Positions 27,360 through 49,246 of a DNA stretch of 64,000 nt are shown piece by piece (positions within the stretch are counted from its first letter, which is position 1; each line of letters opens with the position of its first letter). Source of the stretch: Lactarius indigo (taxonomy: Eukaryota; Basidiomycota; Agaricomycetes; Russulales; Russulaceae); contig JAFKAC010000059.1 in assembly GCA_025766275.1 (NCBI GenBank), forward strand, positions 62,001 through 126,000. The letters run 5' to 3'. The position numbers and the translations under genes are program-made. The notes beneath the pieces were generated by a model that saw nothing but the letters and a program-made list of their open reading frames with translations, searched no databases and was not told the DNA's origin.

Positions 27360-27822
27360 GGATGCTGTCACAGGGAACGATGCGAGTCTGCCACGACAGC
27401 ACAGCCGATTTAAAGCAAAGGTAGATTAGAGGATCTGGTCTCGTATGAAGATAGCCTAAATGTAAACGGAGCCGCGGGACTCTTTTCCTCTTGCTTTTTC
27501 CATCCAAGACCGCTTGCAAAACCGGGGGTTGTCCGCTTTTGGTGAGACCCGGTCCATGTTACGTTACGTGCGCCTATCTAGCATCTACTGTACCAGGCAA
27601 CGACTGGGGGTAATCAATTACGTCCAACCTCTCTATTACTGTAATGCTCGCTTCAGGTAGCAGTCTAAAAGAGGCTCGGATCTGGGACATCATCCACTGG
27701 AAACTGAGTCTGTTATACAGTACGAGAAAACCTGGCCTTGAAACTGCGAGGTTGTCGATCAATCTATAGTCAAGGGGCTTTCGAAAAGCTGCGAAGAGAG
27801 GTTGTTGAGATGACACGGCTGA

Positions 27823-28250
27823 ACCCCCGCGTCTCTGCGGGCATCCTCAGCGCGGCTTGGAACCCCGTACACCCACTATTCCCTTACACCCGCCTATTCT
27901 CCACCTTGGATGGCGCCCTCCGCCTCCTTAGTTTTCTTCAACTTACGCGTGCCGCGTCCCGTCCGGAATCCGGTCCGCCCCCTCCCGATGTGCCACCTGA
28001 ACCCGACTAGGTAAGGGGCCCTCTTCTTTGCGCTCTCCGTTATGCTGTCTCGCTCTCCTTCTCTACGCGCCTTTTCTGGCTCAACCTGACGCTTTCCCGT
28101 TTCGTCTGTGTTTGTCTCCTTCTCGGTTTCGATACTTATGACTCGGGGCACCCATACCACGCTTTCTCATAACTGTAGTTTACTACGACCGGTCTGTATC
28201 TTCGCATGCGCACTCCGGAATACAAATTGATCCAAAAAAAAAAAAAAAAA
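27823..28250 (+). mobile_element. LINE-1: 5'-truncated non-LTR retrotransposon 3' end (unit A only)
   Basis: A 428-bp insertion bounded by perfect 14-bp target-site duplications GATGACACGGCTGA (27809-27822 and 28251-28264) and ending in a 17-nt A tail. The remaining coding part reads LFSTLDGALRLLSFLQLTRA, like the extreme C-terminus of fungal LINE ORF2 proteins, then a stop. Its last 50 bp (GACCGGTCTG near the start, TGATCC before the A run) resemble those of LINE-2, so both belong to one family. Units B and C show the uninterrupted equivalent near 35866 and 42465. Confidence 0.85.
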
Positions 28251-28792
28251 GATGACACGGCTGACTTTTTTTCGGTGTCGTCATGACACGGGTGACGGGT
28301 CTGACCAGGTCAAACAGCAGACTCGCGTTTGCTGGGGTCCGAATACATATACATGTGTAATGCTGAGATTCTGCGCAAGAACCCGCCATCGTTGAGGCCA
28401 ATTTATGTATTTTAAATTGTCAAGGACCGTACATTTTTTAAAAAAAAATCCATTAAAGTGCGCCTTGGGGTACGTGGCCCTATGTGGCACTTTTACAATA
28501 CATTCCTTCCCTGTAATATATCCTTCGGCTCCTCTTTTGTATTAACAACTTTACAATAGAAAAGGACCGTACGTAATCATACCAAGCAGAATAGATCGCA
28601 AGGAAGGCATGGGGATTTGTATTTTTTCTGTTTTACAGTAAACGGCTTTTGCGCGCAGAACCCCACGTAGGCTTCCGATACAATGCTATATATATACATT
28701 TTCCGATGAATTCCGTCCACAAAGTGAATGTCTGTAGTACCGTAAACATGTGACCGCCACCAGTAAAACTCCCAGCTCAGACCTTGAGCACG

Positions 28793-31594
28793 TCACACAA
28801 GCTCGCCCGCAGAATATGAAAGGCCCTGGTCCCCGGGAGAGGCAGCGCGCTGCACCGACGACGGCAACACCGGGGACAAGCGAGAGGGACCTGCCAATAC
28901 GACCTGTAGCGTAGGGGTTGTAGAAGGACCAACGTGCGCCGTCAGCGAGTCCTCTATCTGCGGAAGAACGTCAATGCCCTCCACGACCGGTTGCGGCGCA
29001 CGTGTAGCCATCTCGACACTGTCCCCGGCTAGCCCTCGAGTCGTTTCCCCTGACGTAACCTGCGCATGCACCGAAGATGGCGTCGGCGATAATGATCCTT
29101 GCAGTAGGTGCCGTGGAAGCGACTGCGCCACCGACCATGGCGCGAACTGTGGAAGTGATGGCAGCGATGACGGTGCCAGCCACTCGGGCAATCGCACAAG
29201 AAACTGTGCCAGCGAACTTGTTCGCGGCCAATCCAGCGACCAACCCAGCGATCGAAACACCGACAGAACCAGCTGGGTTTGCGACGGAGCCAGCTGGGTC
29301 CGCTGCAGAGGCAGCTGGGACCGTGACAATGACGGCGATCGTGACCGCGACAATGACCGTGATCGTGACCGCGACAATGACGGCGATCGTGACCGCGACG
29401 GGGTGGGTGTTTGTCTTAGAACCTGTGTCGAAAGCAGTGGCGGCGATGTCCCTGAACTCGGTGGCGAAGACGGATCCTGATCCGCAAACTGAGTTAAAAG
29501 CGGTGGCAGTGACACCTCTAGCGTCTCTGAGAGCGTCTTTGCACGCGCCAGTAGACGGAGCTCTGTGTGAGCGCGATGGAACGCCTCGAATTGCGGTGGA
29601 GGAGCGTCTGCGACAGAATCCCGTGTGAGTATCTCGAGCGTGAGCGTGATGAGGTCCTGCTGCGCGGCGCGAATGAACACAGGCGACGCGCGGTTGCCGT
29701 GCTGCTCGGATATGCTGCTACCGGTCCGGTATTGTTCCGTATTGCGCGCATCGAAGAGAGCACAGCGCTCTTGGTGGATTGTGTGCGCGCTGTCCGATGT
29801 CAACCAGGGCATGCCCATGTACTTGATACCGTTCCCAATGTCCGCGAGGAAGCGCCCGAGGTTCTGAAGCCGCGCATTGTCACCGTGCAAGTCAGTGTCG
29901 GTGGCAACGCCAACATTCGCACTGGTGTAAATGTTTTCGTTCTCATCGCGGGCTACGCTATCGTTGGCACCAGGGACGGCGCCAGCGCCGACGCGGAGCC
30001 GCTTCGATAGGAACTTCTTGCCGGCGTCGTCGTCGTCCCAGATAAATGGGACACCTTCTAAAAAGAAGCCGAGCGCACGTGGTGGGGTGATAGTGAACGC
30101 AGCGATCACCGCCGCGACACATCGTACAGAGAGAAAGACGTCGTCCCCCAGGTTATACGTGTCCCACAACTCCTCAATGATTTCAAGAGACTCGGGAGCT
30201 TTCAGGAGCGATAGGATCACCAGGGAATAGTGCTCCCCGGCAGCATACAGAGCGAGTATGTCACGAATTGCGCCAGGAATGTAGTAGAGCGCCTTCAGGC
30301 ATGTCTTGATTCTTTGACGCTGGAGGGCTACTGAAAGGTTGCTCGCAGTTGCCCGTTGCGCGAGCCCAAGGATGCTCCACGCGAGTGGCTCGTTAAAGCT
30401 CGTCGGTCCAGGTAAGCCCGAGAGGATGGTGTGAATAGTGGGGCGTGGGTCATCAGCTTGAGGGTCGTTGGACGTGGTAAGAGCCCTGGACTCGTACAGA
30501 CCGGGGATCCCTGCGGCAAAACTTTCGAGTTCGTGGTCTTCGTCGAGCTGGCTGACTGTCCAATCGAGCGCCGAACTGTATATTTCCATCGAGATGAGTT
30601 TCGCTGAGTTCTCGAGATTGGAGATCATTTTAGCTGAGAAGGACTTGAACTTGTTCTTCTGAAGGTTCTGGGACTCTACCACTGCCCTACTAACTGCTCC
30701 CCATTGACTATTCAATCGCTCCATGCAGAGATGAGTGGCCGAGAAGAAAGATACTAAGGCCTTGTGAGCACAAAACCAAAGAAGGGATGTCAAGGGTGTG
30801 TGATAGGGGCAGTCATGGGAGAAGAGCGGCGTCAGTGTGAGGGCGAGGTACGAGAGAAGGCAGAACGCCACAATTGAGAGTGTGAAATATGCGACGACGT
30901 GATTGGCTCGGAAGGCGAAGACGACGAGTCCGGCGAAGAACAGGAATACGGATATGAGAAGAAGGAATGGCAACATATCAGCAAGCCAGGAGATCCCGAA
31001 CCTGCGTGCACCTTGTGCAAAGTATTCCCGGATATGCGCACGGACGTGAGGCGCGTGGTTCCGTTGAACCATCTGGAGATACTTGCGGGCCCATTGTTGC
31101 AGCAGTGTGGCCATGAGCGCGCATGTGAGACTGAGTACGAGGCTGAGGAACCAGACCGAGTTGATAAATACCACCGATGCCGCAGGGGTGAAGGAAGTTT
31201 GGACGGATGGAATTGTGGGACTGGTGGTACCGCCGGTGGTGGAAGTAGAAAGTTGTTGGGATATCTGTGCGAGGAGGGACTGGGTGGTGACATTTGGATC
31301 TTGCTGCAAGTTCTGGTAGCTGACAGCGATGAAACTAGCCACGGTCGAAGAGAAGAGGCCGGTCTGAAAAGAGAGAGCACCGTTTGCAAATCAGGTTCAT
31401 GGAGATTGATAACAGAAGCGTACAAAGAGGAGGATGCCATTTGCCTGTCCGTCCCAATTATCGACATTTTCCTTGTCAAGGGTTTGTGCCCTGTCGATGT
31501 ACATAGAGAAGATGGCCCCAGAGGAGTCACTATATGTAGGTTTTTCAGGAGCAGTGGTAACATTCTGGGGCGTAGGTTGTTGCCGGGCAGCCAT
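28793..31594 (-). CDS. DUF6535-domain membrane protein, copy A
   Basis: Agaricomycete-specific protein of unknown function. Two exons, 31594-31424 and 31363-28793, give 913 aa. Exon 1 has SGAIFSMYIDRAQTLDKEN and exon 2 resumes exactly in the first membrane helix (GILLF joined to TGLFSSTVASFIAVSYQ), the conserved DUF6535 intron position. About four membrane helices follow: SVVFINSVWFLSLVLSLTCA, then MLPFLLLISVFLFFAGLVVF and YFTLSIVAFCLLSYLAL. After a large soluble region with an Arg/Asn-rich helical part, the last 220 residues are Ser/Pro/Gln-rich. Only copy A has RS-type octapeptide repeats there (SRSRSPSL class). In exon 1 and the membrane region it resembles copy C; in the middle it resembles copy B. 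Confidence 0.85.
29322..29400 (-). repeat. 24-bp minisatellite inside DUF6535 copy A
   Basis: On the plus strand, a 24-bp unit beginning GATCGTGACCGCGACAATGA occurs at 29337 and 29361 and partly at 29385, with a partial unit before 29337. On the coding (minus) strand it encodes Ser-Arg-rich octapeptides. Copies B and C lack it and instead show a degenerate 12-bp periodicity (word CCAGCGAC, for example 36757-36815). Confidence 0.85.
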
Positions 31595-32017
31595 AACGAT
31601 TGGTTGGGACTCGGATACAAGTGGGTGCGCACAAGATGATTTATCAAGACTATAAAACGCTGGGCATATCGGGAAGTTAATAATCGCGATTCTACTAAAG
31701 GGTAAGCAAAAGTGGGACGGGGACAAACTAATCATCAACTTCGAGTTAATTCCGGTTCAGGACTTTGACAGGTTCGGTGGCAATTTTGGCCAGTCACCGT
31801 ATCAGTATTATATCATTACCTGATGCGCTTTCTGCGGCCCGCGCAACACAGCAGATCGTAAGAGGAAAACTCTTAAAAGCGTTGGGAAAGGTCCTTCCAG
31901 CTATTATACACAAACTCAACGATAACAAGGGTATTTCACCGTTACTGTAGCAGAAAATAAGAATAGAGACGATGGAAGACAAGGCTGCTAATTCACCTGT
32001 GACAAAACAGATTCCGT
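31595..32017. other. 5' flank of DUF6535 copy A (putative promoter)
   Basis: Conserved with the flanks upstream of copies B (from 39008) and C (from 45609) but with small indels. No open frame of note. It ends at the LINE-2 insertion point, so that element lies about 420 bp upstream of the copy A start codon. Confidence 0.5.
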
Positions 32018-32705
32018 GCCATACCCCCCAAAAAGCTCGAGGCAGGGTATACTCTGATTACCCGGCGCACACATGCCACTGCCTTGCGACTTGCCACTGT
32101 CCACTCTTTCACATCAGACTATTCCCGACGACATCGGCCAGACCTCCCCCTTGAGGCTAGCCACTGCTCCTGCGGTCACCTGGATAAGTTCTTCTATCAC
32201 CTCGTTTACGATTGTCCCCGGTATACCAGACACCGGATGCTCCTTCTCCATCATCCTCCCCTCTATGACCACGAACCTTGTTCCCTGTTTGCTGGGGATC
32301 GCGACGTGGTGTACACCTTCTTACGCCTCTTCCTGACTAAGCTGGCATCAAAACCGGAGTTCGAAGTGCCCGCGTCTCTATCGGGAACACGCGCTTGCCG
32401 AGCTCCACGAACGCCTCCTCCACCCTGTCGAAATCGACCTGCTCTTCGAACACGACCTGGACCCGGCCTAATCGGCTGCCCGGTAAATACCTTCTCTCGT
32501 ATTACTCCTCTGCCGTTACTTTTTCCTTGCGCGGTATGCTACTCCTTTTCCTACGGTTCTTACGTTTCCTCTGGGAGGTGACGAACTTTATTATATTACC
32601 ACATGGGTTTTCTTACTTCTCGTAAATCTCCTCTCTCTTTATAGAGGATGAGGACCGGTCTTGTATTACTGTCCCAGAATAAACATGATCCAAAAACAAA
32701 AAAAA
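32018..32705 (+). mobile_element. LINE-2: 5'-truncated non-LTR retrotransposon 3' end (unit A only)
   Basis: A 688-bp insertion between perfect 14-bp duplications AAAACAGATTCCGT (32004-32017 and 32706-32719; some A may belong to the tail), ending in an A-rich tail. It encodes the C-terminal part of a LINE ORF2: LATVHSFTSDYSRRHRPDLP, then the zinc-type CSCGHLDKFFYHLVYDCPRY and FAGDRDVVYTFLRLFL. Frames are broken in places. The matching site in unit C (near 46020) reads straight through without the element; unit B has lost this stretch. Confidence 0.88.
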
Positions 32706-33197
32706 AAAACAGATTCCGTCCATAGGTTTATCGGAGCTTATCTAAGAGGTGACAATGGAAGCATAGTGATATGAGTAAGTGGGAGCACATTGGCGCCAGA
32801 TGTGTGAGGTGACTCTCCTTCCGGGCATGATAACGAAAACAGATACCAACACTGAGAATCCCACCCTCAATCCGACCCGCAGGACACACCCCAATGAGCT
32901 TGGGTACTAGTATGGGACAGTCGCAACCAGGCTTCACAGAAGAGGAACAGACAGCAATGACGTGGTGTACTGTATCGTTTGTATGGCGCACTTGTAGTGC
33001 AAAGCTTGGTGCAAAGTTTTCCACAACGCCCGCCGGGTCTTTTTCGTACTGTACTCCCGTGAGTGCAGGGAGTAGCTTAGCCTTGCTAGCTAGCGCTAGC
33101 GATTTCCAACAAGATTTCCAAATCACAACGCGAGGTGTAGGCGGGGTTTTAATATTTGCATATCAGCCAATAGGCTAGCTCCAACCCTGAACAATCC

Positions 33198-33211
33198 TTG
33201 AAGCTTGAAGC
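33198..33211. repeat. TTGAAGC heptamer, two copies (unit A)
   Basis: TTGAAGC is repeated twice here, once in unit B (39408-39414) and four times in unit C (46307-46334, last copy CTGAAGC), at the same place in each unit. It is a length-variable heptamer tract. Confidence 0.85.
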
Positions 33212-33600
33212 TTCGATGAGCCATTGCAATTTGCACTGGCGCCCTTCTTTCCGGCGACAAAGTCATCTCGTCTGTCTGTCATTACGGCACTGTACGTGAA
33301 TTCCTAAGGAGCTGATGAGTTAGACGCGTGTGCAATGTCAATTATTTAGCCTATCTGAGCCCGTCGCTCCCCTCGACTTCTGATCTTACTGCTAATCTAT
33401 GATACTTTCATACGGAACTGCCCCCTCTGGTGCCCCACACGTTTGGCATAGCGGACCTTCCAATCGAGCGGGCTTCGTGGGGTCTGTGCGCTCAGGCTGT
33501 GCCGGAATGGAAGACATAGATAACCGGCGTTAGTATGAATACTACGAAATCGATACTGCATCTACCAGTGCATGCTAGGGAGTGGGAATGTTGTGTCAAC

Positions 33601-34431
33601 TTCATCTCCGACACCCTTTCCTCCTATCTCTCGCACGGCCTTCCACAACCCTTCCCATCCAGATCCGCGAGAATGTTCGATGGTCTCGCCTCGCCGTCAA
33701 TGGCATCCCTACAGGACACGTGCACCTTCTACTCCCACAGAATTTCATGCTGCCCTAGCCCATGACAACCCTTCCTACCGTACCCCTCGCCCTACGCGAC
33801 CCCTCCTGGGTCTGAGCACCAGGCAGTTATGCCCCGGGCTCGGTTTCTTCTCTTGTCCTCGCGTTCGAGGATCCTGATGGGGATGGGGATACCCTAAGGA
33901 CTCTCCTTGGACAGCGGAATCTGTATGCCTTCGCGAATGCAGAACACCTTAGGCGTTGGAAGCAGAAGCCTCATGCCAAAGCAACCATGCCTTCCGCATC
34001 GCGCGACTAACGCCTTTTTCTCCTGGCCTGGGCCCTCCGCTCCTCAGACTATTGCGGGGACCAGTGTGTTCCCTTACTCTTCTCGAATCTTTGTTGATTG
34101 GCACCCCGTTCTCGGACTAAACACCCAGCTCCGTTCCCCTTGTCCTTACTGAGTCAGCGACGGACCCTTAACTCTATGCTCCTTGTAAGCCGCAGTGTTG
34201 AATCTCTGAAATATCGGGACAACAAGCCGCTAAAAAAGGTCTGAAACTGTATGCACAGGGAGTTCTCAAGTACTGCATTTGGTTTGGTTACCGCACAGAC
34301 GGAATGGACATCTTATCTCGTGATACCTACTTGCATTACTTTTACAGTAAGTACAAGGCACCACGAGGACCAGTCTCGATCTATAGTCTATACCCCTGGA
34401 GTATAAATAGATTTTTGTTTAAAAAAAGAGC
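33601..34431 (+). mobile_element. LINE-3 (unit A copy): internally deleted non-LTR element with ORF1-like coding
   Basis: 831 bp bounded by 11-bp duplications GTTGTGTCAAC (33590-33600 and 34432-34442) and ending in an A-rich tail. It carries a broken ORF1/gag-like reading frame: GIPTGHVHLLLPQN, LRDPSWV, SSLVLAFEDPDG, LGQRNLYAFAN, LRRWK. This pattern is typical of the RRM-like ORF1 product of Agaricomycete LINEs. In-frame stops and shifts make it inactive. No reverse-transcriptase core is left. Unit C (around 48375-48395) shows the empty site. Confidence 0.75.
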
Positions 34432-34770
34432 GTTGTGTCAACATATTGATGTCATTAGCACTTGATCGATCCATCAGCGGAAAGGCGGCGCATTCATTGT
34501 ATGTGGTGACGACCCACACAAGTCAGACAGTGTAGAGTCATGTTATGATGGATCCGCTAGAAGTCATTCACACGCTGTACAAATCTTGGTACAGACAGTG
34601 ACTTGAAACTGCTAAACGCTGCAGTCACGAATCTCAAAGAGGGGTGACGGGAAGAGCACCTATAAAATGTACAGATTGGACAATGAATGGCACGATATGG
34701 TGGTTGGGCCAAGCTCGGGGCTGTTGCTGGTAGAACACAAGACCATGGTTCAGACTCGAGGGTGATGATA

Positions 34771-35322
34771 TGCACAACCTCCGTCGCGTCTACGCGCGAG
34801 TCTATGACTTTGATTTTTGTGTTGCTCTCAACGACATGTTGACTTTGTTCCACATGCGACGCAGAAGAAATGTCTCGGAGGCACTCACCTGGTCCTGAGA
34901 GATGTACGATAGCGGGTTCGAAGACGGATCGAATTTGAGGTCAGGACGGAGGAGCTGTGGAGAAGAGGTTTGACCTTGGGTCCTGAGGTTGCAAGGAACG
35001 CGATGCGCACCCGTTGCGAGACGAGGCAATTGAGAGGGCCGACCTCCGCGAAAATGTCCATCTGCCCAGATAGACAACCAGGCGTGAGGACAGGAAAAAC
35101 AAATGATAGGATAGCGGGTGCATACCCGGGTGACGATGTGGATGACGTCGTCGGCGACCTCGCCCTTGAAGAGCTCGAACACGATGGCGCGATAGCGGGA
35201 GATGAACTCGGCCTGGCAGTTTCCCGGGACAACCATACCCTTGCAGATATCAGAAATGGAGACAACGGCAATGATGAAGCCGAACTTTCCGGAGCAGGTA
35301 CCCTCAACGTCCGAGTAGAGCT
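34771..35322 (-). pseudogene. Rpb7 pseudogene fragment (unit A)
   Basis: Homologous to the functional Rpb7 from inside exon 2 (codons for VEGTCSG onward) through exon 5. Exon 1, the start of exon 2 and the last exon (FAIGTIKEDHLG) are missing. Recognisable pieces are EFISRYRAIVFELFKGEVAD, IFAEVGPLNCLVSQR, DLKFDPSSNPLSYISQDQ and SRVDATEV. Introns are retained at the same places, so this is a DNA-level duplicate, not a retrocopy. It is on the same strand as the source gene. Confidence 0.88.
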
Positions 35323-36272
35323 ACTGTAGTGTGTTATTGCCAGTGTTGTACAAGTCAGGCTGACCCAGGCTTTGGGCGGGTCAGTCGACAAATCGTGGGA
35401 ATAGATAAGATAAGATCGGACACGCTTTTAAGCGGAGACTCATTTTGAGATTGACGGGAGAACGGACTGCAACGTTTGCAGTCAGAACAGAACGACGCAA
35501 CATGCGTTGGTTTCCCTATTACCACCACCTCAGGCTCGGCGAGCAGACAGCGATCGTTGTACGCAACGGTTATCGGTCGCAGTATGGCTCACTCATCCCC
35601 AAATTCGCGGATATGGGACACACTGGCAACTAAGTTTGTTCTAAAGTACAAGAAAATCTGTCATCCTCTTGGTCGCCTTATGAAACTGCGGGTTGTTACA
35701 GGGGTTGTTGACGGATTTACAGTCAAGACGTTCTCGAAAAAGTTGTGAAGGAAGGTTGTTGAGACGGTTTCAGACCTTCGTGTTTCATACGTAATGGTCT
35801 TCGCTACGTACGACCCGTCCTGGTACTAGTTTGCTTGCATCTGGGAATAAAAATGGGTTGAAAAAGGTCGTTGAGATGACGGATATCTTTCCGATGTTGT
35901 CATGCCAGGTCTGATGAGGTCCGATAATAGATTCGCGTTGGTTCCGAAGGCAAGTGCGAGGCCGAGATTCCGCGCAAGAGCCTGCCATCTTCGAGGCCAA
36001 TTTGTGTATTTGTCAATAACAGTAGGAAGTCATACAGGCCGAATAGTATGCATCTAGTCAGATCGCAAAGAGGGCATAATGTACACATAATATTTACAGT
36101 AATTGTTTCAAGAACCTTTTTTGCACGCCTTCGGTGATACGGAATCATTTGTAGCGCGTCCGTTTATTTTATATCTACACTTTCCGATAAATTTAAGTGA
36201 CGATTGTCTGTCGCACCGTACATATGTGACCGCCACCAATCAAACTTCCGGCTTAGATAGGACTTGAGCACG

Positions 36273-39007
36273 TCACACATGCGCGCCCGTCGAATCTGAA
36301 AAGCCCTGGTCCCCGGGAGAGGCAGCGTATTGCACCGACGACAAGGAAATCGAAGACAGGCGAGAGGGACCTGCTGATACGGCCTGTGGCGTAAGGGTTG
36401 TTGAAAGACCAACGTGCACCGTCGGTGGGCCCTCTATCTGCGGAAGGACCCCAATGCCCTCCACGATTGGTCGCGGCGCGCGCGTAGCCATCTCGACGCC
36501 GTCCCCGGCTTGCCCTTGAGTCCGCTTCACTTCCCCTGACGTAACTTGCGTATGCACCGGAGACGGGGCCGGTACCGCCGGCCCCCGGGCCAGTAGTGGC
36601 GACTGTGAAAGCGACTGTGTCAGGAGGTGTGGCAGCGACTGCGATGCAAACTGTGGCAGTGATGGTGGCGATGACGGCGTAAGCCACTGGGGCTGAGATG
36701 GTGTCAGCGACTGCGCAAGAAACTGTGCCAGCGACCTTGTTCGCGCCTGTTCCAGCGACGGGCCCAGCGACCGGACCAGCGACTGGGCCATTGGCTGGGC
36801 CCGCGACGATCTCCGCGACTGTGACTGCAACGGGGTCAACGGTTGTCCCAGAATTTGAGTCAGAGGCCGTAGAAGCGACGTTTCCAAAGGCCGTGGCGAT
36901 GACCGATCGGAAAATTGAGCTAAAAATGGTGGCAGTGACACCTCTAGCGTCTCTGAGAGTGTCTCAGCGCCTGCCAGTTGACGAAGTTCTGTGTGAGCGC
37001 GATGGAACGCCTCGAATTGCGGTGGAGCAACGATTGCGACAGGATCGCGTGTGAGTATCTCGAGCGTGAGCGTGATGAGGTCCTGCTGCGCGGCGCGAAT
37101 GAACACAGGCGACGCGCGGTCGCCGTGCTGCTCGAATATGCTGCTACCGGTCCGGTATTGTTCCGTATGACGCGCATCGAAGAGAGCACGGCGCTCTTGG
37201 TGGATTGGTTGCGCGTAGCCCGATGTCAACCAGGGCATGCCCATGTACTTGATACCGTTCCCAATGTCCGCGAGGAAGCGCCCGAGGTTCTGGAGCCGCG
37301 CATTGTCACCGTACAAGTCAGTGTCGGTGGCAACGCCAACATTCACATCGATGTAAATGTTTTCGTTCTCATCGCGGGCTACGCTATCGTTCGCACCAGG
37401 GACTGCGCCAGCGCCCGCACGGAGCCGCTTCGATAGGAACTTCTTGCCGGCGTCGTCGTCGTCCCAGATAAATGGGACACCTTCTAAAAAGAAGCCGAGC
37501 GCACGTGGTGGGGTGATAGTGAACGCAGCGATCACCGCCGCGACACATCGTACAGAGAGCACGGCGTCGTCCATGGGGGTGTCCCACAACTCCTCGATGA
37601 TCTCAAGCGACTCGGGAGCTTTCAGAAGCGATAGGATCATCAGGGAATAGTAATCCCCGGCAGCATACAGAGCGAGTACGTCATGAATTGCGCCAGGAAT
37701 GTAGTAGAGCGCCTTCAGGCATGTCTTGATTCTTTGACGCTGGAGGGCTACTGAAAGGTTGCTCGCAGTTGCCCGTTCCGCGAGCCCAAGGATGCTCCAC
37801 GCGAGTGGCTCGTTAAAGCTCGTCGGTCCAGGTAAGACAGAGAGGACGGTGTGAATAGTGGGGCGTAGATCATCAGGGTCGTTGAACGTGGTAAGAGCCC
37901 CAGACTCATACAGACCGGGGATCCCTGCGGCAAAATTTTCAAGTTCGTGGTCTTCGTCGAGCTGGCTGAGTGTCCAATCGAGCGCCGAACTGTATATGTC
38001 CATCGAGATGAGTTTCGCTGAGTTCTCGAGATCGGAGATCACCCCTTCTGAGAAGGACTTGAACTTGTTCTTCTGAATGTTCTGAAACTCTACCACGGCC
38101 CCATTAACTGCTCCCCATTTTTCGTGTAAATGTTTCGCACAGAGATGGGTAGTCGAGAAGAGGAACATTAAGACCTTATGAGCACAAGGCCAAAGGAGGG
38201 ATGTCAAGGGCGTGTAATAGAGACAGTCACGAGAGAAGAGTGGCATCAGTGTGAGGGTGAGGTACGAAAGAAGGCAGAACGCCACAATTGAGAGTGTGAA
38301 ATATGCGACGACGTGATTGGCTCGGAAGGCGAAGACGACGAGTCCGGCGAAGAACAGGAGTATGGATATGAAAAGAAGGAATGGCAGGACATCAACAAGC
38401 CAGGAGATCCCGAACCTGCGTGCACCTCGTGCAAAGTATTCCCGAATATGCGCACGGACGTGAGGGGCATTGTTCCGTTGAACCATCTGGAGATACCTGC
38501 GGGCCCATTGTCGCAGGAGTGTGGCCATGAGCGCGCATGTGAGACTGAGTACGAGGCTGAGGAACCAGACCGAGTTGATAAATACCACCGATGCCGCAGG
38601 GGTGAAGGAAGTTTGGACGGATGGAATTGCGGGACTGGTGGTACCGCCGGTGGTGGAAGTAGAAAGCTGTTGGGATATCTGTGCGAGGAGGGACTGAGTG
38701 ATGACATTTGGATCTTGCTGCAAGTTCTGGTAGCTGATAGCGATGAAACTAGCCACCGTTGAGGAGAAGAGGCCAGCCTGAAAAGAGAGAGCACCGTAAG
38801 CAATCAGGTCCCTGGAGATTGACAACAGAAGCGTACATAGAGGAGGATGTCATTTGCATGTCCGTCGCAATTATCGAAAAATTCCTTGTCAAATGTTTGT
38901 GCCCTGTCGATGTACATAGAGAAGATGGCCCCAGAGGAGTCACTATACGTAGGTTTTTCGGGAGCAGGGGTAACATTCTGGCGCGTATGTTGTTGCCGGG
39001 CAGCCAT
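36273..39007 (-). CDS. DUF6535-domain membrane protein, copy B
   Basis: Exons 39007-38837 and 38777-36273, 891 aa. Same architecture as copy A: SGAIFSMYIDRAQTFDKE, four-helix DUF6535 region (AGLFSSTVASFIAISYQ, then LSLTCALMATLLRQWARRYL), soluble middle, Ser/Pro/Gln-rich tail. The tail (QSLTPSQPQWLTPSSPPSLP) is nearly that of copy C and unlike copy A, while the middle (VARDENENIY...VGVATDTDL) is nearly that of copy A and unlike copy C. Exon 1 has its own changes (FFDNCDGHANDILLY). No stop or frameshift, so probably functional. Confidence 0.84.
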
Positions 39008-39856
39008 ACAGTAACGATTGGTCGGGACTCTGATACAAGTGGGTTCGCGCAAGATGATTGTCGAGACTATAAAACGCTGTAATAACCGCGATTCTACTAC
39101 TGTAAAGGGTAATCAAAAGTGGGACGGGGACAAACTAATCATCAACTCCAAGTCCAGGTTTAGTTGACGAAGACGCGATGACCCCCCACTTTGACAGGTT
39201 CGGTGGCAATTTTGGCCAGTCACCGTATCAGTAACATGTCATTACCTGATGCGCTTTCTGCGGCTCACACAACACAGCAGATCGTAAGAGGAAAATTCTT
39301 AAGAGCGTTGGGAAAGGTCCTTCCAGCTATATACACAATGCGAGGTGTAGGCGGGGTTTTAATATTTGCATATCAGCAAATAGGCTAGCTCCAACCCTGA
39401 ACAATCCTTGAAGCTTCGATGAGCCATTGCAATTTGCACTGGCGCCCTTCTTTCCGCCGTTTCCGGCGACAAAGTCATCTCGTCTGTCTGTCATTACGGC
39501 ACTGTACGTGGATTCCTAAGGAGCTGATGAGTTAGACGCGTGTGCAATGTCAATTATTTAGTCTATCTGAGCCCGTCGCTCCCCTCGACTTCTGATCTTA
39601 CTGCTAATCTATGATACTTTCGTACGGAACTGCCCCCTCTGGTGCCCCACACGTTTGGCATAGTCGGTAGTCGTCACACTGACAACGGCTACAGCGGAGT
39701 TACTGCGCGGACCTTCCAATCGAGCGGGCTTCGTGGAGTCTGTGCGCTCAGGCCGTGCCGGAATGGAAGACATAGATAACCAGCGTTAGTACGAATACTA
39801 CGAAATCGATACTGCATCTGCCAGTGCATGCTGGGGAGTGGGAATGTTGTGTCAAC

Positions 39857-41054
39857 TTCATCTTCGACACCCTTTCCTCCTATCTCTCGCACGGCCCTCC
39901 ACGACCCTTCTCATCCAGATCCGCGAGAACGTTCGATGGTCTCGCCTCGCCATCAATGGCATCCCTACAGGACACGTGCACCTTATACTCCCACAGAATG
40001 TCATGCTGCCCTGGCCCGTGACAACCCTTCCTACCGTATCCTTCGCCCCACGCGACCCATCCTGGGTCCGAGCACCAGGCAGTTATGCCCCGGGCTCGGT
40101 TTCTTCTCTTGTCCTCGCGTTTGAGGATCCTGATGGGGATACCCTAAGGATTCTCCTTGGACAACGGAATCTGTATGCCTTCGCGAATGGAGGAGACCTT
40201 AGGCGTTGGAAGTAGAAGCCTCATGCCAAAGCAACCACTGGCATGCCTTCCGCCTCGCGCGACTAACGCCTTTTTCTCCTGGCCTGAGCCCTCCGCTCTT
40301 CAGACTATTGCGGTGACCAGCGTGTTCCCTTACTCTTCTCAAATCTTTGTTGATTGGCACCCCATTCTCGGACTAAACACCCAGCTTTGTTCCCCTTGTC
40401 CTTACTGAGTCAGCGACGGACCCTTAACTCTATGCTTCTTGTAGGCCACGTGTTGAATCTCTGAGGTATCGGGACAACAAGCCGCTAAAAAAGGTCTGAG
40501 GCTGTATGCACAGGGAGTTCTCAAGTACTGTATTTGGTTTGGTCACCGCACAGACGGAATGGACATCTTATCTCGTGATACTCACTTGCATTACTTTTAA
40601 GTACAAGGCACCACGAGGACCGGTCTTGATCTATGGTCTATACTATGCCTGATCACTCATTCGGACGGGACCACTGAGTCAGACGGTCACGCTTAGTAAC
40701 GGTCCTATTTTGGAATATTTGGAACTCCGATCTACCGAAGAGGCAAGGGAGCTCACGTGCACGTCCCTCCACTTTCGGAAAGTAGTCAGCCACTAAATCG
40801 AACCCCGACACGGCGTTGGTCGGCAGGCGTGACATAGAGCCTTTTTTCTAACTTCGCAACACACCAAGATTTTAACAAAAAAAAAGTACGAGTACATTAA
40901 GGTGTAGTATTAGACATTGTATATTTAATTTTGTGAGGGTTGAGGCAGAGGTGAGTGAGATAATTGATGTGTTTGACTCAGTGGTCCCGTCCGAATGAGT
41001 GATCAGGCATAGTACCCCTGGAGTATAAATAGAATTAAAAAAAAAAAAAAGAAC
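39857..41054 (+). mobile_element. LINE-3 (unit B copy), interrupted by a MITE
   Basis: Same element and insertion point as in unit A, flanked by GTTGTGTCAAC at 39846-39856 and 41055-41065. Without the MITE it is about 826 bp. The ORF1-like frame is longer here than in A and open from about 39838 to 40215 (NGIPTGHVHLILPQN, SWVRAPGSYAPGSVSSLVLA, FEDPDGDTLRILLGQRN, LRRWK, stop). Confidence 0.75.
40643..41012. mobile_element. 370-bp MITE with 39-bp perfect terminal inverted repeats, TA target duplication
   Basis: The ends start CTATGCCTGATCACTCATTC and are exact reverse complements over 39 bp (40643-40681 against 40974-41012). The element is flanked by TA (40641-40642 and 41013-41014), and the sister copy in unit A (34391-34392) has the empty TA site. 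It encodes no transposase. TA duplication points to a Tc1/mariner-type transposase acting in trans, which is an inference. It is inserted inside LINE-3. Confidence 0.93.
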
Positions 41055-41393
41055 GTTGTGTCAACATATTGACGTCATTAGCACTTGATCGATTCATCAG
41101 CGGAAAGGTGGCGCATTCATTGTATGTGGTGACGACCCACACAAGTCAGACAGTGTAGAGTCATGTTATGATAGATCCGCTAGAAGTCATTCACACGCTG
41201 TACAAATCTTGGTACAGACAGTGACTTGAAACTGCTAAACGCCGCAGTCACGAATCTCAAAGAAGGGTGACGGGAAGAGCGCCTATAAAATGTACAGATT
41301 GAACAATAAATGGCACGATATGGTGGTTGGGCCAAGCTCGGGGCTGTTGCTGGTAGAACACAAGACCATGGTTCAGACTCGAGGGTGACGATA

Positions 41394-41944
41394 TGCACAA
41401 CCTCCGTCGCGTCTACGCGCGTGTCTATGACTTTGATTTTTGTGTTGCTCTCAACGACATGTTGACTATGCGACGCAGCAGAAACGTCTCGGAGGCATTT
41501 ACCTGGTCCTGAGAGGTGTACGATAGCGGGTTCGAAGACGGATCGAATTTTTGAGGTCAGGACGGAGGAGCTACGGAGAAGGGGTTTGACCTTGGGTTCT
41601 GGGGTTGCAAGGGACGCGTTGCGCACCTGTTGCGAGACGAAGCAATTGAGAGGGCCGACCTCCGCGAACATACCCATCTGCCCAGACAGACAATCAGGCA
41701 TGAGGACAGGAAAAAACAAATGACAGGATAGTGAGTGCGTACACGGGTGACATTGTGGATGACGCCGTTGACGACCTCGCCCTTGAAGAGCTTGAACACA
41801 GTGGCGCGATAGCGGGTGATGAACTCGGCCTGGCAATTTCCCCCGGGACGACCATACCCTTGCAGATATCAGAAACGGAGACAACGGCAATGATGAAGCC
41901 GAACTGGCCGGAGCAGGTACCCCCCTCAACGTCCGAGTAGAGCT
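41394..41944 (-). pseudogene. Rpb7 pseudogene fragment (unit B)
   Basis: Same truncated span of Rpb7 as in unit A, introns retained (GEVVNGVIHNVTR, MGMFAEVGPLNCFVSQQ, TRVDATEV). It has its own lesions, including extra bases in a C run near 41842 that shift the frame and small insertions near 41550. It descends from the same captured fragment as the unit A copy. Confidence 0.87.
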
Positions 41945-42869
41945 ACTGTAGTGTGCTGCTGCCAGTGTTATACAAGTCAGGCCGCTGAGGCTGACCCAGG
42001 TTTTAACGGGTCAGTCAACAAATCGTGGGAAGAGATAAGATGAGATCAGACAAAGATTGACGGGAGAACGGACCGGAGAGTCTGAGGTTTCCAATTAGAA
42101 CGACGCAGCATGTGTTGTTTCCCTATTACTACCACCTCAGGCCTCAGGCACGGCGACAGACAGCGATCGTTGTACGCAACGGTAATCGGTCTAGGTCTGG
42201 CTCACTCATCAAAAAAATACGCGGATCTGGGACACACTGGCAACTAAGTTTGTTCTGAAGTACGAAAAATCTGTCATCTTATGAAACTGCGGGGTTGTCG
42301 CAGGGGTTTTTGACGAATCTACAGTCAAGAGGTTCTCGGAAAAGTTGTGAAGGGAGGTTGTTGAGGTGGTTTTAGACCTTCGTGTTTCATATGTAATGGT
42401 TTTCGCTACGACTTGTCTTGGTACTAGTTTGCTTGCATCTGGGAATAAAAATGGGTTGAAAAAGGTCTTTGAGATGACGGATATCTTTTCGGTGTTGTCA
42501 TGCCAGGTCTGATGTGGTCCGATAACAGATTCGCGTTGGTTCCGAAGGCAAGTGTGAGGCCGAGATTCCGCGCAAGAGCCTGCCATCTTCGAGGCCAGTT
42601 TGTGTATTTGTCGATAACAGTACGAAGTCATACAGGCCGAATAGTATGCATCTAGTCAGATCGCAAAGAGGGCATAATGTACACATAATATTTACAGTAA
42701 TTGTTTCAAGAACCTTTTTTGCACGCCTTCGGTGATGCGGAATCATTTGTAGCACTTCCGTTATTTTATATCTACACTTTCCGATAAATTCAAGTGACGA
42801 TTGTCTGTCGCACCGTACACATGTGACCGCCACCAATCAAACTTCCAGCTTAGATAGAACTCGAGCACG

Positions 42870-45608
42870 TCACACATGCGCGCCCGTCGAATCTGAAAAG
42901 CCCTGGTCCCCGGATGAGGCAGCGTACTGCACCAACGACAAGGAAACCGAAGACAAACGAGAGGGACCTGCCAATACGGCCTGTGGCGTAGGAGTTGTAG
43001 AAAGACCATCGTGCACCGTCGGTGGGTCCTCTATCTGCGGAAGGACCCCAATGCTCTCCACGATTGGTCGCGGCACGCGTGTAGTCATCTCGACGCCGTC
43101 CCCGGCTTGCCCTTGAGTCCGCTTCACTTCCCCTGACGTAACTTGCGTATGCACCGGAGACGGGGCCGGTACCACCGGCCCCAGAAGTAGCGACTGTGAA
43201 AGTGACTGTGTCAGGAGGTGTGGCAGCGACTGTGACGCAAACTGTGGCAGTGATGGTGGCGATGACGGCGTCAGCCACTGGGGCCGAGATGGTGTCAGCG
43301 ACTGCGCAAGAAACTGTGCCAGCGACCTTGTTCGCGACCGTTCCAGCGACCGGCCCAGCGACCGGACCACCGACTGGGCCATTGACTGGGCCCGCGATGA
43401 TCTCCGCGACTGTGTCTGCAACGGGGTCAACGGTTGTCTCAGAATTTGAGTCAGAGGTCGTGGCAGCGGCGTTCCCAAAGACCGTGGCGATGACCGATCG
43501 GAAAATTGAGCTAAAAATGGTGGTAGTGAGTCCTCTAGCGTCTCTGAGAGTATCTCAGCATCTGCCAGTTGACGAAGTTCTGTGCGAGCTCGATGGAGCG
43601 CCTCGAATTGTAATGGCGTAGGGCCTGCGACAGATTCCCGCGTAAGTATCTCGAGCGTGAGCGTGATGAGGTCCTGCTGCGCGGCACGAACGAATGCAGG
43701 TGAAGCGCGATCGCCGTGCTGATTGGATATGCCGCTACCGGCCCGGTATTGTTCCGTGTTGCGCGCATCGAAGAGAGCACGGCGCTCTTGGTGGATTGGT
43801 TGCGCGTTGTCCGATTTCAACCAGGGCATGCCCATGTACTTGACCCCGTTCCCGATGTCCGCGAGGAAGCGCCCAAGGTTCTGAAGCCGCGCTTCATCGT
43901 TGTGCAAGCCGGCGTCGTCAACACTCGCGTCGCTGAAAATGCTTTCGTCCTCCTCATAGACTACGTTATCGTTCACGCTAGGGACAGCGCCATCGTTCGT
44001 ACCGGGGCCGGCGCTTAGGCGAAGTCGCTTCGACAGGAAATTCTTGCCGGCATCGTCGTCCCAGATAAATGGGACGTCTTCTAAGAAAATGTCCAGCGTA
44101 CGACGTGGTGGGGTAATCATGAACGCAGCGATCACCGTCGCAGCACACCGTACAGAAAGCGCGACGTCGTCCCTGGGGGTGTCCCACAACTCCTCGATGA
44201 TCTCAAGCGACTCGGGGGTGTTCAGGAGTGGTAGGATCACCAGGCAATAGTGCTTCCCGGCAGCATACGGAGCGAGCACGTCACGAATTGCGCCAGGAAT
44301 GTAGTAGAGCGCCTTCAGGCACGCCTTGATTCTTTGCCGCCGGAGGGTTTCTGAAAGGTCGCTCGCCGTTGCTCGTTGCGCGAGCCCAATGATGCTCCAT
44401 GGGAGCGGCTCGTTAAAGCTTGTCGGCCCGGGTAAGACAGAGAGGACGGTATGAATAGTGGGGTGTGGATCATCGGGGTCGTTGGACGTGGTAAGGGCCC
44501 CGGACTCATACAGACCGGGGATCCCTGCGGCAAAATTTTCAAGTTCGTGGTCTTCGTCGAGCTGACTGAGCGTCCAGCCGAGCGCCGAACTGTATATGTC
44601 CATCGAGATGCGTTTCGCTGAGTTCTCGAGATTGGAGATCATCCCTTCTGGGAAGGACTTGATCCTGTTCTTTTGAATGTTCTGGAACTCTACCACGGCC
44701 CCACTAACTGCTCCCCATTTTTCGTGTAGGTGCTTCGCACAGAGATGGGTAGTCGAGAAGAGGAAGACTAAGGCCTTATGAGCACAAAACCAAAGGAGGG
44801 ATGTCAAGGGCGTGTGATAGGGACAGTCATGGGAGAAGAGGGGCGTCAGTGTGAGGGCGAGGTACGAAAGAAGGCAGAACGCCACAATTGAGAGTGTAAA
44901 ATACGCGACGACGTGATTGGCGCGGAAGGCGAAGACGACGAGTCCGGCGAAGAACAGGAGTATGGATATGAGAAGAAGGAATGGCAGGACATCGACAAGC
45001 CAGGAGATCCCGAACCTGCGTGCACCTCGTGCAAAGTATTCCCGGATATGCGCACGGACGTGAGGCGCGTGGTTCCGTTGAACCATCTGGAGATACCTGC
45101 GGGCCCATTGTTGGAGGAGCGTGGCCATAAGTGCGCATGTGAGACTGAGTACGAGGCTGAGGAACCAGACCGAGTTGATGAATACCACCGATGCCGCAGG
45201 AGTGAAGGAAGTTTGGACGGATGGAATTGCGGGACTGGTGGTACCGCCGGTGGTGGAAGTAGAAAGTTGTTGGGATATCTGTGCGAGGAGGGACTGGGTG
45301 GTGACATTTGGATCTTGCTGCAAGTTCTGGTAGCTGACGGCGATGAAACTAGCCACGGTCGAGGAGAAGAGGCCGGTCTGAAAAGAGAGAGCACCGTAAG
45401 CAAATCAGGTTCACGGAGATTGACAACAGAAGCGTACAAAGAGGAGGATGCCATTTGCCTGTCCGTCCCAATTATCGACATTTTCCTTGTCAAATGTTTG
45501 TGCCCTGTCGATGTACATAGAGAAGATGGCCCCAGAGGAGTCACTATACGTAGGTTTTTCAGGAGCAGGGGTAACATTCTGGGATGTAGGTTGTTGCCGG
45601 GCAGCCAT
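42870..45608 (-). CDS. DUF6535-domain membrane protein, copy C
   Basis: Exons 45608-45438 and 45377-42870, 892 aa. Exon 1 and the membrane region are close to copy A (DKENVDNWDGQANGILLF, TGLFSSTVASFIAVSYQ), the tail is close to copy B, and the middle is its own (SVNDNVVYEEDESIFSDAS). Reading frame intact. Function unknown; the array context and variable tail are the main clues. Confidence 0.84.
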
Positions 45609-46306
45609 GACGGCGGGTTGGGACTCGGATACAGGTGGGTGTGCACAAGATATATATCAAGACATTGCTGGACGTTATATCGGGAGGTTGGTAATCACGA
45701 TCCTTCTGAAGGGTAAATGAATGGCGAGTCCGACAAACTAATCCATTCCGAGTTCATTCCGGTCCTGGTTTGGTTGACAGATAATATCGCCCGACAGGTT
45801 TGTTTGACAGGTTCAGTGGCAATTTTGACCAGTTACAGTATCGTTACCTGATGCGCCACACAACAGATCGTAAAAGGAAAGCCTAGATTTTCACTGTAAG
45901 CGTGTTGGGAAAGATCCTGCTAGTTATAAAAAAACACAACCATAATACGGGTATTGCACCACTGTAGTAGAAAATAAGATTGAAGGCGAGGCTGCCAATT
46001 TACCTGTGAAACCTGACTGACGAAACATATTCCGCCCACTGCTGCATCGAAGCTTATAGCAAGGGCTACAAATGGAAGTATACCGGTATGAGTAAGTGAG
46101 AACACAGTGACGTCCAGATGTGGCGCAAAATTGGCCGCAACGCCTGCCGGATCTTTTCCATACTGTACCCCCGTGATGGAGTGCACGAAGTAGCTACCTC
46201 AGCCTTGCTACTGCAACGGCGCAACACACAACCATTTTTGGATATAGGCGGGGTTTGAATATTTGAACATCGGTTACTGAGTTCGCCGATCCCCTGACCT
46301 CAATCC
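45609..46306. other. 5' flank of DUF6535 copy C, empty LINE-2 site
   Basis: Aligns with 31595-33197 of unit A without LINE-2. The pre-insertion sequence near 46020 reads GACGAAACATATTCCGCC, against the duplicated AAAACAGATTCCGT in A. No gene seen. Confidence 0.6.
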
Positions 46307-46334
46307 TTGAAGCTTGAAGCTTGAAGCCTGAAGC
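46307..46334. repeat. TTGAAGC heptamer, four copies (unit C)
   Basis: Three TTGAAGC units and one CTGAAGC in tandem. The same locus has two copies in unit A and one in unit B. Confidence 0.9.
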
Positions 46335-46710
46335 TTCGATGAGTAGTCGCATTCGCCTTGGCATGCGATCTCTCCGGTGACCAAGTTATCTCGTCCGTCT
46401 ATGCTATACGGGAATTCCTAAGGAGCTGATGAGACGGTCGCGATGCATGCAATGTGACCATGTCTTACCGTCACGTCACTTGAGCCTGCGGCTTCCCTCG
46501 ACTTCTGATCTGGCTTCTGATCTACGATACTTTGGCACTGAACTTCCCCCTCCACACAATTGACATAGTCGGTGGTCTTCGTATTGACAGCAGCTACAGC
46601 AAATGTCTACTACATAAGAATCGGGGAGCAATGAACTTTGACTAGAGCTTTGTTTGCGCCCTCCTTGACCCAATCTTCTGTTCTGCCCTTTACTACGCCA
46701 TTTTTCTACC

Positions 46711-47429
46711 ATGTCCGGAGATCCCTTTGTAGTCTATCCGTACTAAAAAGCGACCCTGTACGAAAACCTTTTTGTCGGAATCGTCTATGGTGAGGGACAA
46801 GCGACTCGCCGTTGCCACCCCGATTTCTGAGCCATTGTGCTGTACATCACAGGTATCTATATCGTACTCTACGTCACCTCGGTCCACATCCTCCTGTGAG
46901 TGTTCTCGAAGGAAGGACGACGCAAGCCTACAGTAGATGACTTTCAGGCGCAAACCAGGTTTCACTTCGTCTCGGCCTAGCATGTTCATTGTTGGGATCA
47001 CGACTTTTATGTTCGTCATGGGAATAGTCGCATTGGTCCTAGAGAAAGCTCTCGAGTTCCAGTCTATCCAGTCATTCAACTCATTTTTCGATCCCACGGC
47101 TGGCAATGCGTGTTTTTCTCAGTGCGTTCGGTGGCATCCCTTCTACACGTTCTTCTGGGCATTAAATAGTGCTAAAAACCAACTGAACACAGGGCCTATA
47201 TCCGACGCTCATAATCATCCTCGTCGCCATGCAGAAGAGCTCGATTGAATACTACTCGACCTACTCGAACGGAATACAGTTGGTAAGGGGGCCAGCACTC
47301 AGACCACCCCAGGTCAGTGACATGCCACAACACGTGTACATGATTCGTCGCGAGTACACGAGTGATTCGGATACACATGTTCTGCCTATGGTGTCTATGA
47401 AGACCTCCGATGAGGAAAGGGGCCTGTGA
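46711..47429 (+). pseudogene. broken paralogue of the multi-pass membrane protein at 49247-50696
   Basis: Starts MSGDPFVVYPY and then hits a stop; downstream pieces LYENLFVGIVYGEG, VLYITGIYIVLYVTSVHILL, RRKPGFTSSRPSM and GITTFMFVMGIVALVL match the intact gene. The coding sequence then jumps from the second/third helix to the C-terminal MQKSSIEYYST, SDMPQH, IRREYTSDSDTH, so several exons are deleted. The C-terminal stop is directly followed by a solo LTR. Confidence 0.85.
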
Positions 47430-47431
47430 TC

Positions 47432-47704
47432 TGTTGGAGTTCAGCCGCACACGATGAGTAAGCATCGGGAAACTCCGAGCTAGCTGAAGTCGGAAACGAC
47501 CAAGTCGAGTACAGCTGCTCTACTATACCACTATAGACTTAGCGTAGAAAATTTCCGCCTATTAAATTGAACATATATACTTCGTAGCTACAGTAGCGAC
47601 ACCTCAGTCTTTTCTCCCGAAGACTGAGGTCAGTACTTCATTTCACTTTCCGTATGCTACCTTACTGACTCGTAACTTAGTCGCGCTTTCCCGCGCCTCT
47701 AACA
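47432..47704. mobile_element. solo LTR, 273 bp
   Basis: Begins TGTTGG and ends CTAACA (near-perfect short inverted ends, TG...CA) between 5-bp duplications TGATC (47427-47431 and 47705-47709). The paralogous locus after the intact gene (50693-50710) lacks the insertion and reads continuously. An 11-bp inverted repeat with an 8-nt loop (47601-47630) lies inside. There is no coding sequence; such solo LTRs arise by LTR-LTR recombination of a Gypsy or Copia element. The family is not identified. Confidence 0.82.
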
Positions 47705-47709
47705 TGATC

Positions 47710-49246
47710 TTTGGCCGGTGGGATGAAATCTGTCGTCGTTGTCCACTTTAATCATGCCATATTTAATTCGCGGGTAACCTTCATGTCTACCCAGTATACT
47801 CCTTGTGCGCGCCTTGGTAACCAAATGAGAGAAGGCGGAAGCTGTTAAGAAGCGTGCAAGTAGTGATGATGATGAAACCAAATTGGGAGAGTATTTTGGG
47901 CCTACTGTATTGTTTAGGACAACTGGGCGGATACAAACTGCAGAATCTGGAAAGCAGTATGTGTCATATGAGTGGAAAGCGATTAGAATAGAATTGTACT
48001 GCAATCCCACTTACAGCGCTTTTCATCATGGAGGTCTTCCTCCAAATTATCCTGGGGCGGGTTGAGTAGCTATGGCGCAGCGAGTGGGGTTATCAGTGAG
48101 CATCTTTTTACAATGAACAGCATAGAGAGGAGCATCAAAACGGGTTGGTCAAGATCACTAGACCCGCGCAGAGTTAGACGGTGATGCTGAGTCAATATTA
48201 GCGTCCTGGGAGATCCACCGTGAGGCACTGCATGGACCTTCCACAATCGAGCTTCGTGGAGTCTGCACGCTTGGGCTGTGCCGGAATAGAATAACTGGGG
48301 TTAGTATGGAAAAGGTTCGGTAGAATTTGATACTGCATCCGCCAGTGTATACTACTGGAGCAGCGGGTGAGCATGTTGTGCCAACATATTAACATTCCAT
48401 CAGTGGGAAGGCGATGCATTCGTTGGATGCTACCCAAATCACCGTGTCTTGAAACTTCGCTAAACGCCACAGTCCATCAGGAAAACGAAATGTGACTCAC
48501 GGATCCAAGCACAGATCTCAGAGAAGGAGAAGAGCACTCATAGATTGTACAGATTGGACAGCACGATATGGTGGTTCATCCTAGAGGCTGTTTCTGGTGT
48601 AACACGGCCTCTGGCAAGGCCATCATGATGATCAGGCTCATGGTTCTGAGTCCAGGTCAGCTCCGAGTCGATGTCGTCGCCGCTCAGGCTCAATGTGATG
48701 TGATGAGACGTGTGACCACGTGACTGCAAATGGCGTTTTGAGCGCTTCGTTATGGCGCCACCTGTACTCTTGGCAGTACTGTAAATCCATTCGCACGCCG
48801 TCTCTCTAGTGAGCTGTATCTTCTAAAAAGCCAGGGTGAGTTTGATGAAACAGATGTGATGCAAGTACTATTTTATTGCCCATGGTGGCAACCCTACATG
48901 TGTAGGAGATGGCCATTTTCTTGATGCTTGATGCTGCCTTCCGAGTCACATCACTGGCTTTGGACCATTTGAGACAGCTGGCTCCCCCCCAGCGGCCTAC
49001 CGACACCTATCTACGATATGCCTCTTTCGCACGCCAGTACTTCCCCCTCCGGTTCCACACAATTGATACATTCGGCGGCGGTTCTCGCTCTCAGGTTGGC
49101 CGCGGCTCTTGCTGTGGCCACAGTAAATGCCTACTACTTAAGAATCCGCGGGGAGCAGTGAGTTTTCTTTTCCTCATACTTGGCCTCTCGCTCTGATCTG
49201 CCAACTCCCTCAGCCACTCCATTTCGCGCGCATTATTTTTGCCGCC
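47710..49246. other. decayed spacer: 3' flank of the pseudogene, tail of unit C, 5' flank of the membrane gene
   Basis: 47710-47780 matches the sequence after the intact gene (50700-50765). 48220-48600 matches unit sequence at 33464-33580 and 34440-34730 with the LINE-3 site empty. 49030-49130 matches the pseudogene upstream region (46540-46620). No intact gene seen. Confidence 0.55.

Follow-up and report, generated by a model that had tools for sequence, protein, structure and literature searches.

DUF6535 genes on two haplotypes

The window analysed in this work is a stretch of 64,000 nucleotides (nt) of Lactarius indigo that corresponds to C247:62001-126000 in an assembly of 90.3 Mb and 291 contigs. 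It carries a tandem array of three DUF6535 genes (A1, B1, and C1) for predicted multi-pass membrane proteins, whose patchwork relationships with each other and with further copies outside the window are described here. A preliminary description of this DNA had listed three intact DUF6535 genes in tandem, and the open frames, splice sites, and PF20153 matches of all three genes are indeed present. The intron of each gene (59-60 nt, GT-AG) sits after codon 57. Each gene matches PF20153 at 139-140 bits (140 bits for A1; cut-off 23.9; E about 1e-40) and covers positions 30-176 of the 177 positions of the profile. The tandem units are spaced 7.4 and 6.6 kb apart, and the array copies on C247 are mutually 82-89% alike. 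Within the PF20153 family the copies of the window belong to one close subfamily, in which a long variable tail lies beyond the Pfam domain. The tail of A1, which is A-type like its middle part, contains about 29 Ser/Arg-rich residues (window 29273-29362) without counterpart in the other six copies.

At least seven copies are present (Table 1), and every frame of these seven is open over 882-913 amino acids (aa). In the whole-genome DNA search, in which 40 of 99 candidates were scored, the seven copies are 85-100% identical and the next place is 73-75% identical among these best 40. Two of the copies outside the window (A2 and C2) form an array on contig C220. The other two (D1 and D2) represent a copy D that lies inverted at about 70 kb from A on both haplotypes. 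C220:136-241k is collinear with C247:22-126k, where the main flank blocks are 95-98% identical and the remaining 2 kb of the comparison match in place at 98.5%. An RPB7 query (182 residues of a partial gene, read through an intron) gives one unbroken match per contig (182 and 177 residues) besides relics. C247 and C220 are read as the two haplotypes of the dikaryon because of this collinearity and the single unbroken RPB7 match on each. The array has three copies on C247 (A1, B1, and C1) versus two on C220 (A2 and C2), and B has no separate allele on C220. Elsewhere in the window, a 4-kb piece (57443-61532) has a second copy on C220 (229084-233192, 91% identical) besides the allelic one that is found from 234585 on.

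Table 1. Coordinates of the DUF6535 copies, the segments of B1, the spacer parts, and the RPB7-derived sequences (window positions unless a contig is named).
Feature	Coordinates	Strand	Description
DUF6535 copy A1	28793..31594	-	exon 1 31594-31424, 60-nt intron, exon 2 31363-28793; 913 aa
DUF6535 copy B1	36273..39007	-	exon 1 39007-38837, 59-nt intron, exon 2 38777-36273; 891 aa; mosaic
DUF6535 copy C1	42870..45608	-	exon 1 45608-45438, 60-nt intron, exon 2 45377-42870; 892 aa
Copy A2	C220:207182-209888	-	array
Copy C2	C220:213386-216124	-	array
Copy D1	C247:18832-21548	+	
Copy D2	C220:132221-134973	+	
B1, D-type segment	38168..39007	-	exon 1 and membrane domain to about aa 261; mostly 98-99% to D1/D2
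B1, mainly A-type segment	37095..38166	-	about aa 262-619; 93-96% to A1/A2
B1, C/D2-type segment	36273..37068	-	about aa 628 to stop; 92-98%
A-B spacer stretch, read as insertion	32003..32999		almost without counterpart in the C220 part compared
A-B spacer part	33124..34393		repeated in B-C spacer 39334-40643, 90%
Truncated RPB7 relic, A-B spacer	34767..35322	-	
B-C spacer part	39334..40643		98-100% to spacer right of A2 on C220
B-C spacer stretch	40644..41012		without counterpart at this place on C220
Truncated RPB7 relic, B-C spacer	41388..41944	-	frame-shifting gaps in exons
RPB7 gene part, source of relics	23875..24420	-	unbroken match once per haplotype

Mosaic relationships among the copies

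The preliminary description had reported that the most similar pair among A, B, and C changes along the gene. The peptides on which it relied are present: A and C share DKENVDNWDGQANGILLF and LFSHDCPYHTPLTSLLWF, B and C share the segment LHEKWGAV...FQNIQKN and the tail type, and A and B share VARDENENIY and VGVATDTDL. The same switch is exhibited by the nucleotides in sliding windows of 150 columns. At the gene start, A-C identity is 97% (A-B 91-92%, B-C 92-95%). Near aa 262 (window 1650), B-C is the closest pair (93%; A-C 81%, A-B 77%). The gene middle is closest between A and B (93-97%; A-C 80-90%, B-C 80-89%), and the tail between B and C (86-95%; A-C 66-84%, A-B 65-85%). A simple A-C picture of the membrane half is contradicted by columns 1200-1349, where A-B is the top pair (99%; B-C 97%, A-C 95%).

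Local rate differences could mimic such a pattern in three sequences alone, and the segments of the gene do differ in constraint. Successive duplication without exchange, with uneven rates or constraint shifting the nearest pair, is nevertheless considered extremely improbable. The topologies of the seven copies conflict strongly, and near-identical noncoding tracts are shared between non-allelic copies (98-100% upstream of A2 and B1; 98-99% in the 3' flank of A2 and D1). The pairwise homoplasy index (PHI) is 0.134 over 380 informative sites, whereas 1000 permutations averaged 0.373 and never fell below 0.354. By parsimony on 600 ungapped variable gene sites of the seven copies, the best single tree takes 844 steps. 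A solution of four segments with four trees (penalty 8) takes 744 in total, and the minimum among 100 site shuffles is 833; a penalty of 12 gives three segments. Chance is excluded as the cause of the switching pattern because PHI falls below all 1000 permutations and the total of 744 is below the shuffle minimum of 833.

The maximum-likelihood trees also differ among the four segments. The segment 1 tree groups B with D1/D2 (bootstrap 100), and the segment 2 tree sets C and D apart from A and B (100). The segment 3 tree places B, D2, and C together (100) with B next to D2 (76). The segment 4 tree pairs B with D2 (97) and D1 with A2 (100). In approximately unbiased (AU) tests, whose p-values are optimistic as the segments were chosen on the same data, every segment rejects the alternative trees offered, with two exceptions: for segment 3 the whole-gene tree is accepted too, as is, marginally, the segment 4 tree (p 0.058). 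The more conservative Shimodaira-Hasegawa test does not reject the segment 3 and whole-gene trees for segment 4 (p 0.18). A single topology along the whole alignment had been named beforehand as evidence against exchange, and by the PHI and AU tests no one tree fits the seven copies. In a GENECONV-like test, shared runs are significant in 15 of 21 pairs (p<0.05 per pair, uncorrected for the 21 pairs) and no such run was found in the other six. Examples are A2-D1 (47 sites), B1-D2 (38 sites), and A1-B1 (29 sites). A preference of the breakpoints for highly conserved stretches was rejected, with the 120-bp windows at the three switch points lying at the 33rd-41st conservation percentile.

Copy by copy, B1 consists of a D-type, a mainly A-type, and a C/D2-type segment (Table 1), where the first part of the mainly A-type segment is transitional and nearest D2 (94%). 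The tail of D1 is A2-type (76-94% at first and 98-99% in its last part). The tail of D2 is B/C-type, and a remnant of an A/D-type tail stands directly behind it (C220:135570-136242). This double tail resembles a scar left when one tail replaced another. The earlier three-copy account holds for the mosaic itself and has to be corrected in that a fourth copy, D, which lies outside the window, also takes part.

The composition of A2 was followed in 250-bp tiles, moving rightward along C220. Over its first kilobase the A2 unit resembles D1 (inverted) at 95-99%, the A2 body is 92-100% like A1 (tile 209500 is slightly closer to C1), and the A2 5' end together with about 1.7 kb upstream is 96-100% like B1. 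Beyond the B1-like stretch follow a short B-C-type piece (99%), about 1 kb of A-B-type spacer (92-99%), a mixed stretch, and then C1-type sequence, mostly at 94-99% (tile 215750 is slightly closer to A1). In the gene alignment, the B-type start of A2 gives way to mostly A-type sequence around exon 1, and mostly D-type sequence follows after column 3523. Likeness to a non-allelic copy thus exceeds likeness to the allele at both ends of A2: the 3' end is 95-99% identical to D1 versus 83-92% to A1, and the upstream part is 96-99% identical to B1 versus 82-86% to A1 (two nearest tiles).

C1 and C2 are mutual nearest relatives along nearly the whole gene, except around exon 1, with A2 or A1 equally close or closer there, and in a small number of further windows. 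Among the copies, C1 is the nearest to P0001 of Lactarius pseudohatsudake, and P0001 is nearest to C in 9 of 9 segments, with ties (C with D1 and D2 at aa 266-300; C with D1 at aa 481-560). Since P0001 is nearest to C throughout, the middle shared by A and B and the 5' end shared by B and D seem derived, and the 5' agreement of A and C appears to be largely shared ancestry. The A-C agreement that had been noticed beforehand is seen, but mostly not as exchange, as B carries a D-type segment there. Some A-C exchange may have occurred, for which room is left by an A2-C1 run of 16 sites (p 0.001) and by the number of differences in 203 sites (4 for A2-C1 versus 5 for A1-A2).

The spacers exhibit similar relationships. 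RPB7-derived sequence of about 560 bp is found in each of the A-B and B-C spacers, so the duplicated unit is larger than the gene. Frame-shifting exon gaps were seen in the relic of the B-C spacer and not in the other two RPB7 relics. Four 250-bp tiles of the stretch read as an insertion in the A-B spacer were compared with C220; three have no match and one matches over 52 bp at 83%. No Pfam match was found for the open reading frame (ORF) 32003-32578 among the spacer ORFs looked at. The heavy transposon damage around the genes that the preliminary description had mentioned is not taken as established. Judged from the shared parts in Table 1 and the tiles, the spacers are exchanged between copies too. 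Partial RPB7-like matches were also found at C270:1937570, C281:927853, and C257:203325 (78-83% over 92-99 residues). To the right of the array, window 46752-47430 and 49285-50697 are pieces of a diverged (73-78%) direct repeat, and C220:217247-218773 is a further piece related to it.

The analysis covered the assembled contigs, in which haplotype switching or collapse in a dikaryon could create false hybrids and a false copy-number difference. Both haplotypes are in the assembly, the 82-89% likeness of the array copies is a setting prone to assembler error, and the A2 hybrid falls where the haplotypes differ. However, the array copies on C247 differ by 11-18%, the spacers have stretches of their own, and no exact run longer than 114 bases is common to the B and C units compared. 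The flanks are collinear on both contigs, and the mosaicism of B1, D1, and D2 extends beyond the haplotype junctions. An assembly artefact is thus regarded as very unlikely. We give a similarly small probability to ordinary allelic crossing-over at meiosis among old array haplotypes with copy loss and without conversion. The haplotypes do differ in copy number and A2 resembles a crossover product, but the likeness of B1 to D (98-99% over most of the membrane half) and of A2 to D1 spans about 70-77 kb in opposite orientation, a likeness that crossing-over between alleles does not create.

We consider it highly probable that copies A, B, and D are patchworks that arose through non-allelic homologous recombination, which is the best explanation. 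The preference for gene conversion or unequal exchange over plain successive duplication in the preliminary description is supported by the conflicting trees, the A2 hybrid, and the sharing with D. The simplest account, in addition to conversions, would be that A and B recombined by unequal crossing-over within the 5' part of the gene, which produced A2 and the absence of B. The sequences point to a copy-number change with a hybrid gene, where C220 would have two array copies and an A/B hybrid because of unequal exchange. Sharing with the inverted D would result from gene conversion rather than from a single crossover, because a crossover would invert the intervening 67-70 kb or so, and this interval is collinear on both haplotypes. 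Such exchange may bring new combinations of membrane, middle, and tail parts.

Reading frame and selection

In the seven-copy alignment each of the 17 exon gaps has a length divisible by three, and the two gaps whose length is not are both intronic. When the observed substitutions were placed at random (2000 runs), zero stops were obtained in 1% of runs for A1-A2, 14% for C1-C2, 19% for D1-D2, and none for A1-B1, A1-C1, and B1-C1. The RPB7 relics, by contrast, are truncated. The ratio of nonsynonymous to synonymous divergence (dN/dS) over the whole gene is 0.12 for C1-C2 and 0.76 for A1-A2, and it is 0.46 for D1-D2 in the first 640 alignment columns. For segments 1 to 4, the ratios are 0, 0.05, 0.15, and 0.31 for C1-C2 and 0.20, 1.31, 0.65, and 1.33 for A1-A2. 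The tail ratios of close pairs are 1.33 (A1-A2), 1.11 (A1-D1), 0.96 (A2-D1), and 1.31 (B1-D2). The earlier argument that the open frames reflect selection is borne out by the in-frame gaps and the strong constraint on C; it is weakened by the looser A1-A2 pair and by the tail ratios of about 1 or above in four pairs. C is probably the conserved gene of parental type, and A, B, and D would be derived copies that are kept open and are less constrained in at least A.

The public model P0002 matches C2 up to the tail, which it places in another frame. This alternative tail frame was rejected. The main frame of C1/C2 has 0 stops and a dN/dS of 0.32 in the tail; read in the other two frames, the two sequences together contain 24 and 3 stops, with ratios of 1.89 and 1.06. 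The main tail frame is also supported by the relatives P0001 and P0003.

A nonself-recognition or arms-race locus, at which selection for diversity would retain new combinations and spread them, would be consistent with the copy-number difference between haplotypes, the segment swapping, the ratios of 1.31 and 1.33 that A1-A2 reaches in two segments out of four, and the very large family. However, the allelic dS of the copies (0.050-0.067) resembles that of eight neighbouring ORF pieces (0.053 pooled, range 0.025-0.092). High allelic divergence as a sign of balancing selection was rejected on this basis. The dS does not mark the alleles as older than the surrounding genes, as would be expected of balanced nonself-recognition alleles, and long-term balancing selection is unsupported because allelic dS is close to that of the neighbours. 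C is strongly constrained, the spacers are exchanged as well, and in another DUF6535 cluster a 10-kb pair is collinear between contigs at 96.3%. We regard an arms-race locus as very unlikely. Mosaic arrays are also not universal, since that other pair is collinear.

The DUF6535 family and its possible role

At least 150 DUF6535 matches were identified in the assembly, counting both haplotypes; 150 of 924 candidates were scored and all 150 are above the cut-off. Clusters are found on the contigs C230, C246, C190, C216, and C1, and they are dense on several contigs. Among public proteins, 802 matches were obtained from 7994 scored candidates, and the named ones among the 120 listed belong to Lactarius and one Russula. 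An alignment of 61 sequences led by P0001, which is 88% identical to C1, has 28 invariant columns, and conserved positions are thus found in the wider family. The role of the family had been called undescribed, which agrees with the literature searched, where DUF6535 was found in one paper (PMC12387923), as a table entry.

In the full-length model of P0001 (mean predicted local distance difference test score, pLDDT, 69.6), the N-terminal part forms long helices. A helical region spanning roughly 320-640 is modelled for the most part with confidence, apart from a weak stretch around 510-540, and most of the tail has low confidence. Hydropathy indicates four strong hydrophobic stretches (aa 53-71, 121-145, 190-208, and 210-231); the helical region contains another, weaker one. 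The middle domain modelled alone (mean pLDDT 78.6) has a weak, generic resemblance to ARM/HEAT solenoids, and no sequence match to a solved structure chain was found at E up to 1. The weak structural likeness to ARM/HEAT scaffold proteins lies in the solenoid-like helical middle domain of the models; the differences are the N-terminal membrane block, the absence of such a sequence match, and the weak scores. On this architecture we tentatively suggest, as the most likely reading of the function although it is less probable than not, that the N-terminal block with its four hydrophobic stretches might anchor the ARM/HEAT-like domain and the disordered tail at a membrane, where the protein could act as an adaptor or scaffold. 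It is far more speculative, and very improbable in our judgement, that DUF6535 forms a combinatorial repertoire of membrane receptors in Russulaceae, in which hundreds of arrayed genes, some of them reassorting membrane, solenoid, and tail parts by recombination, would give the two nuclei of a dikaryon different sets and thereby set nuclei or individuals apart by their surface or organelle identity.

Tandem multigene families with gene conversion and unequal crossing-over include the primate opsin arrays and the hnwd genes of Podospora. The copies in this work are similar to such families in their patchwork structure, in the hybrid gene at a copy-number change, and in the tracts that include both coding and noncoding sequence. 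They differ in that an inverted copy about 70 kb away is involved and in that the comparison is between two haplotypes of one assembly. The recombination process is already known, and what is described here is a family case with a well-supported patchwork. It provides an example, seen on two haplotypes, of apparent unequal exchange and conversion within a large and little-studied family, with an inverted and distant copy among the partners. Whole-gene trees of such arrays can mislead. C is told apart as the probable conserved parental type, and experimenters would thus know which copy to take first.
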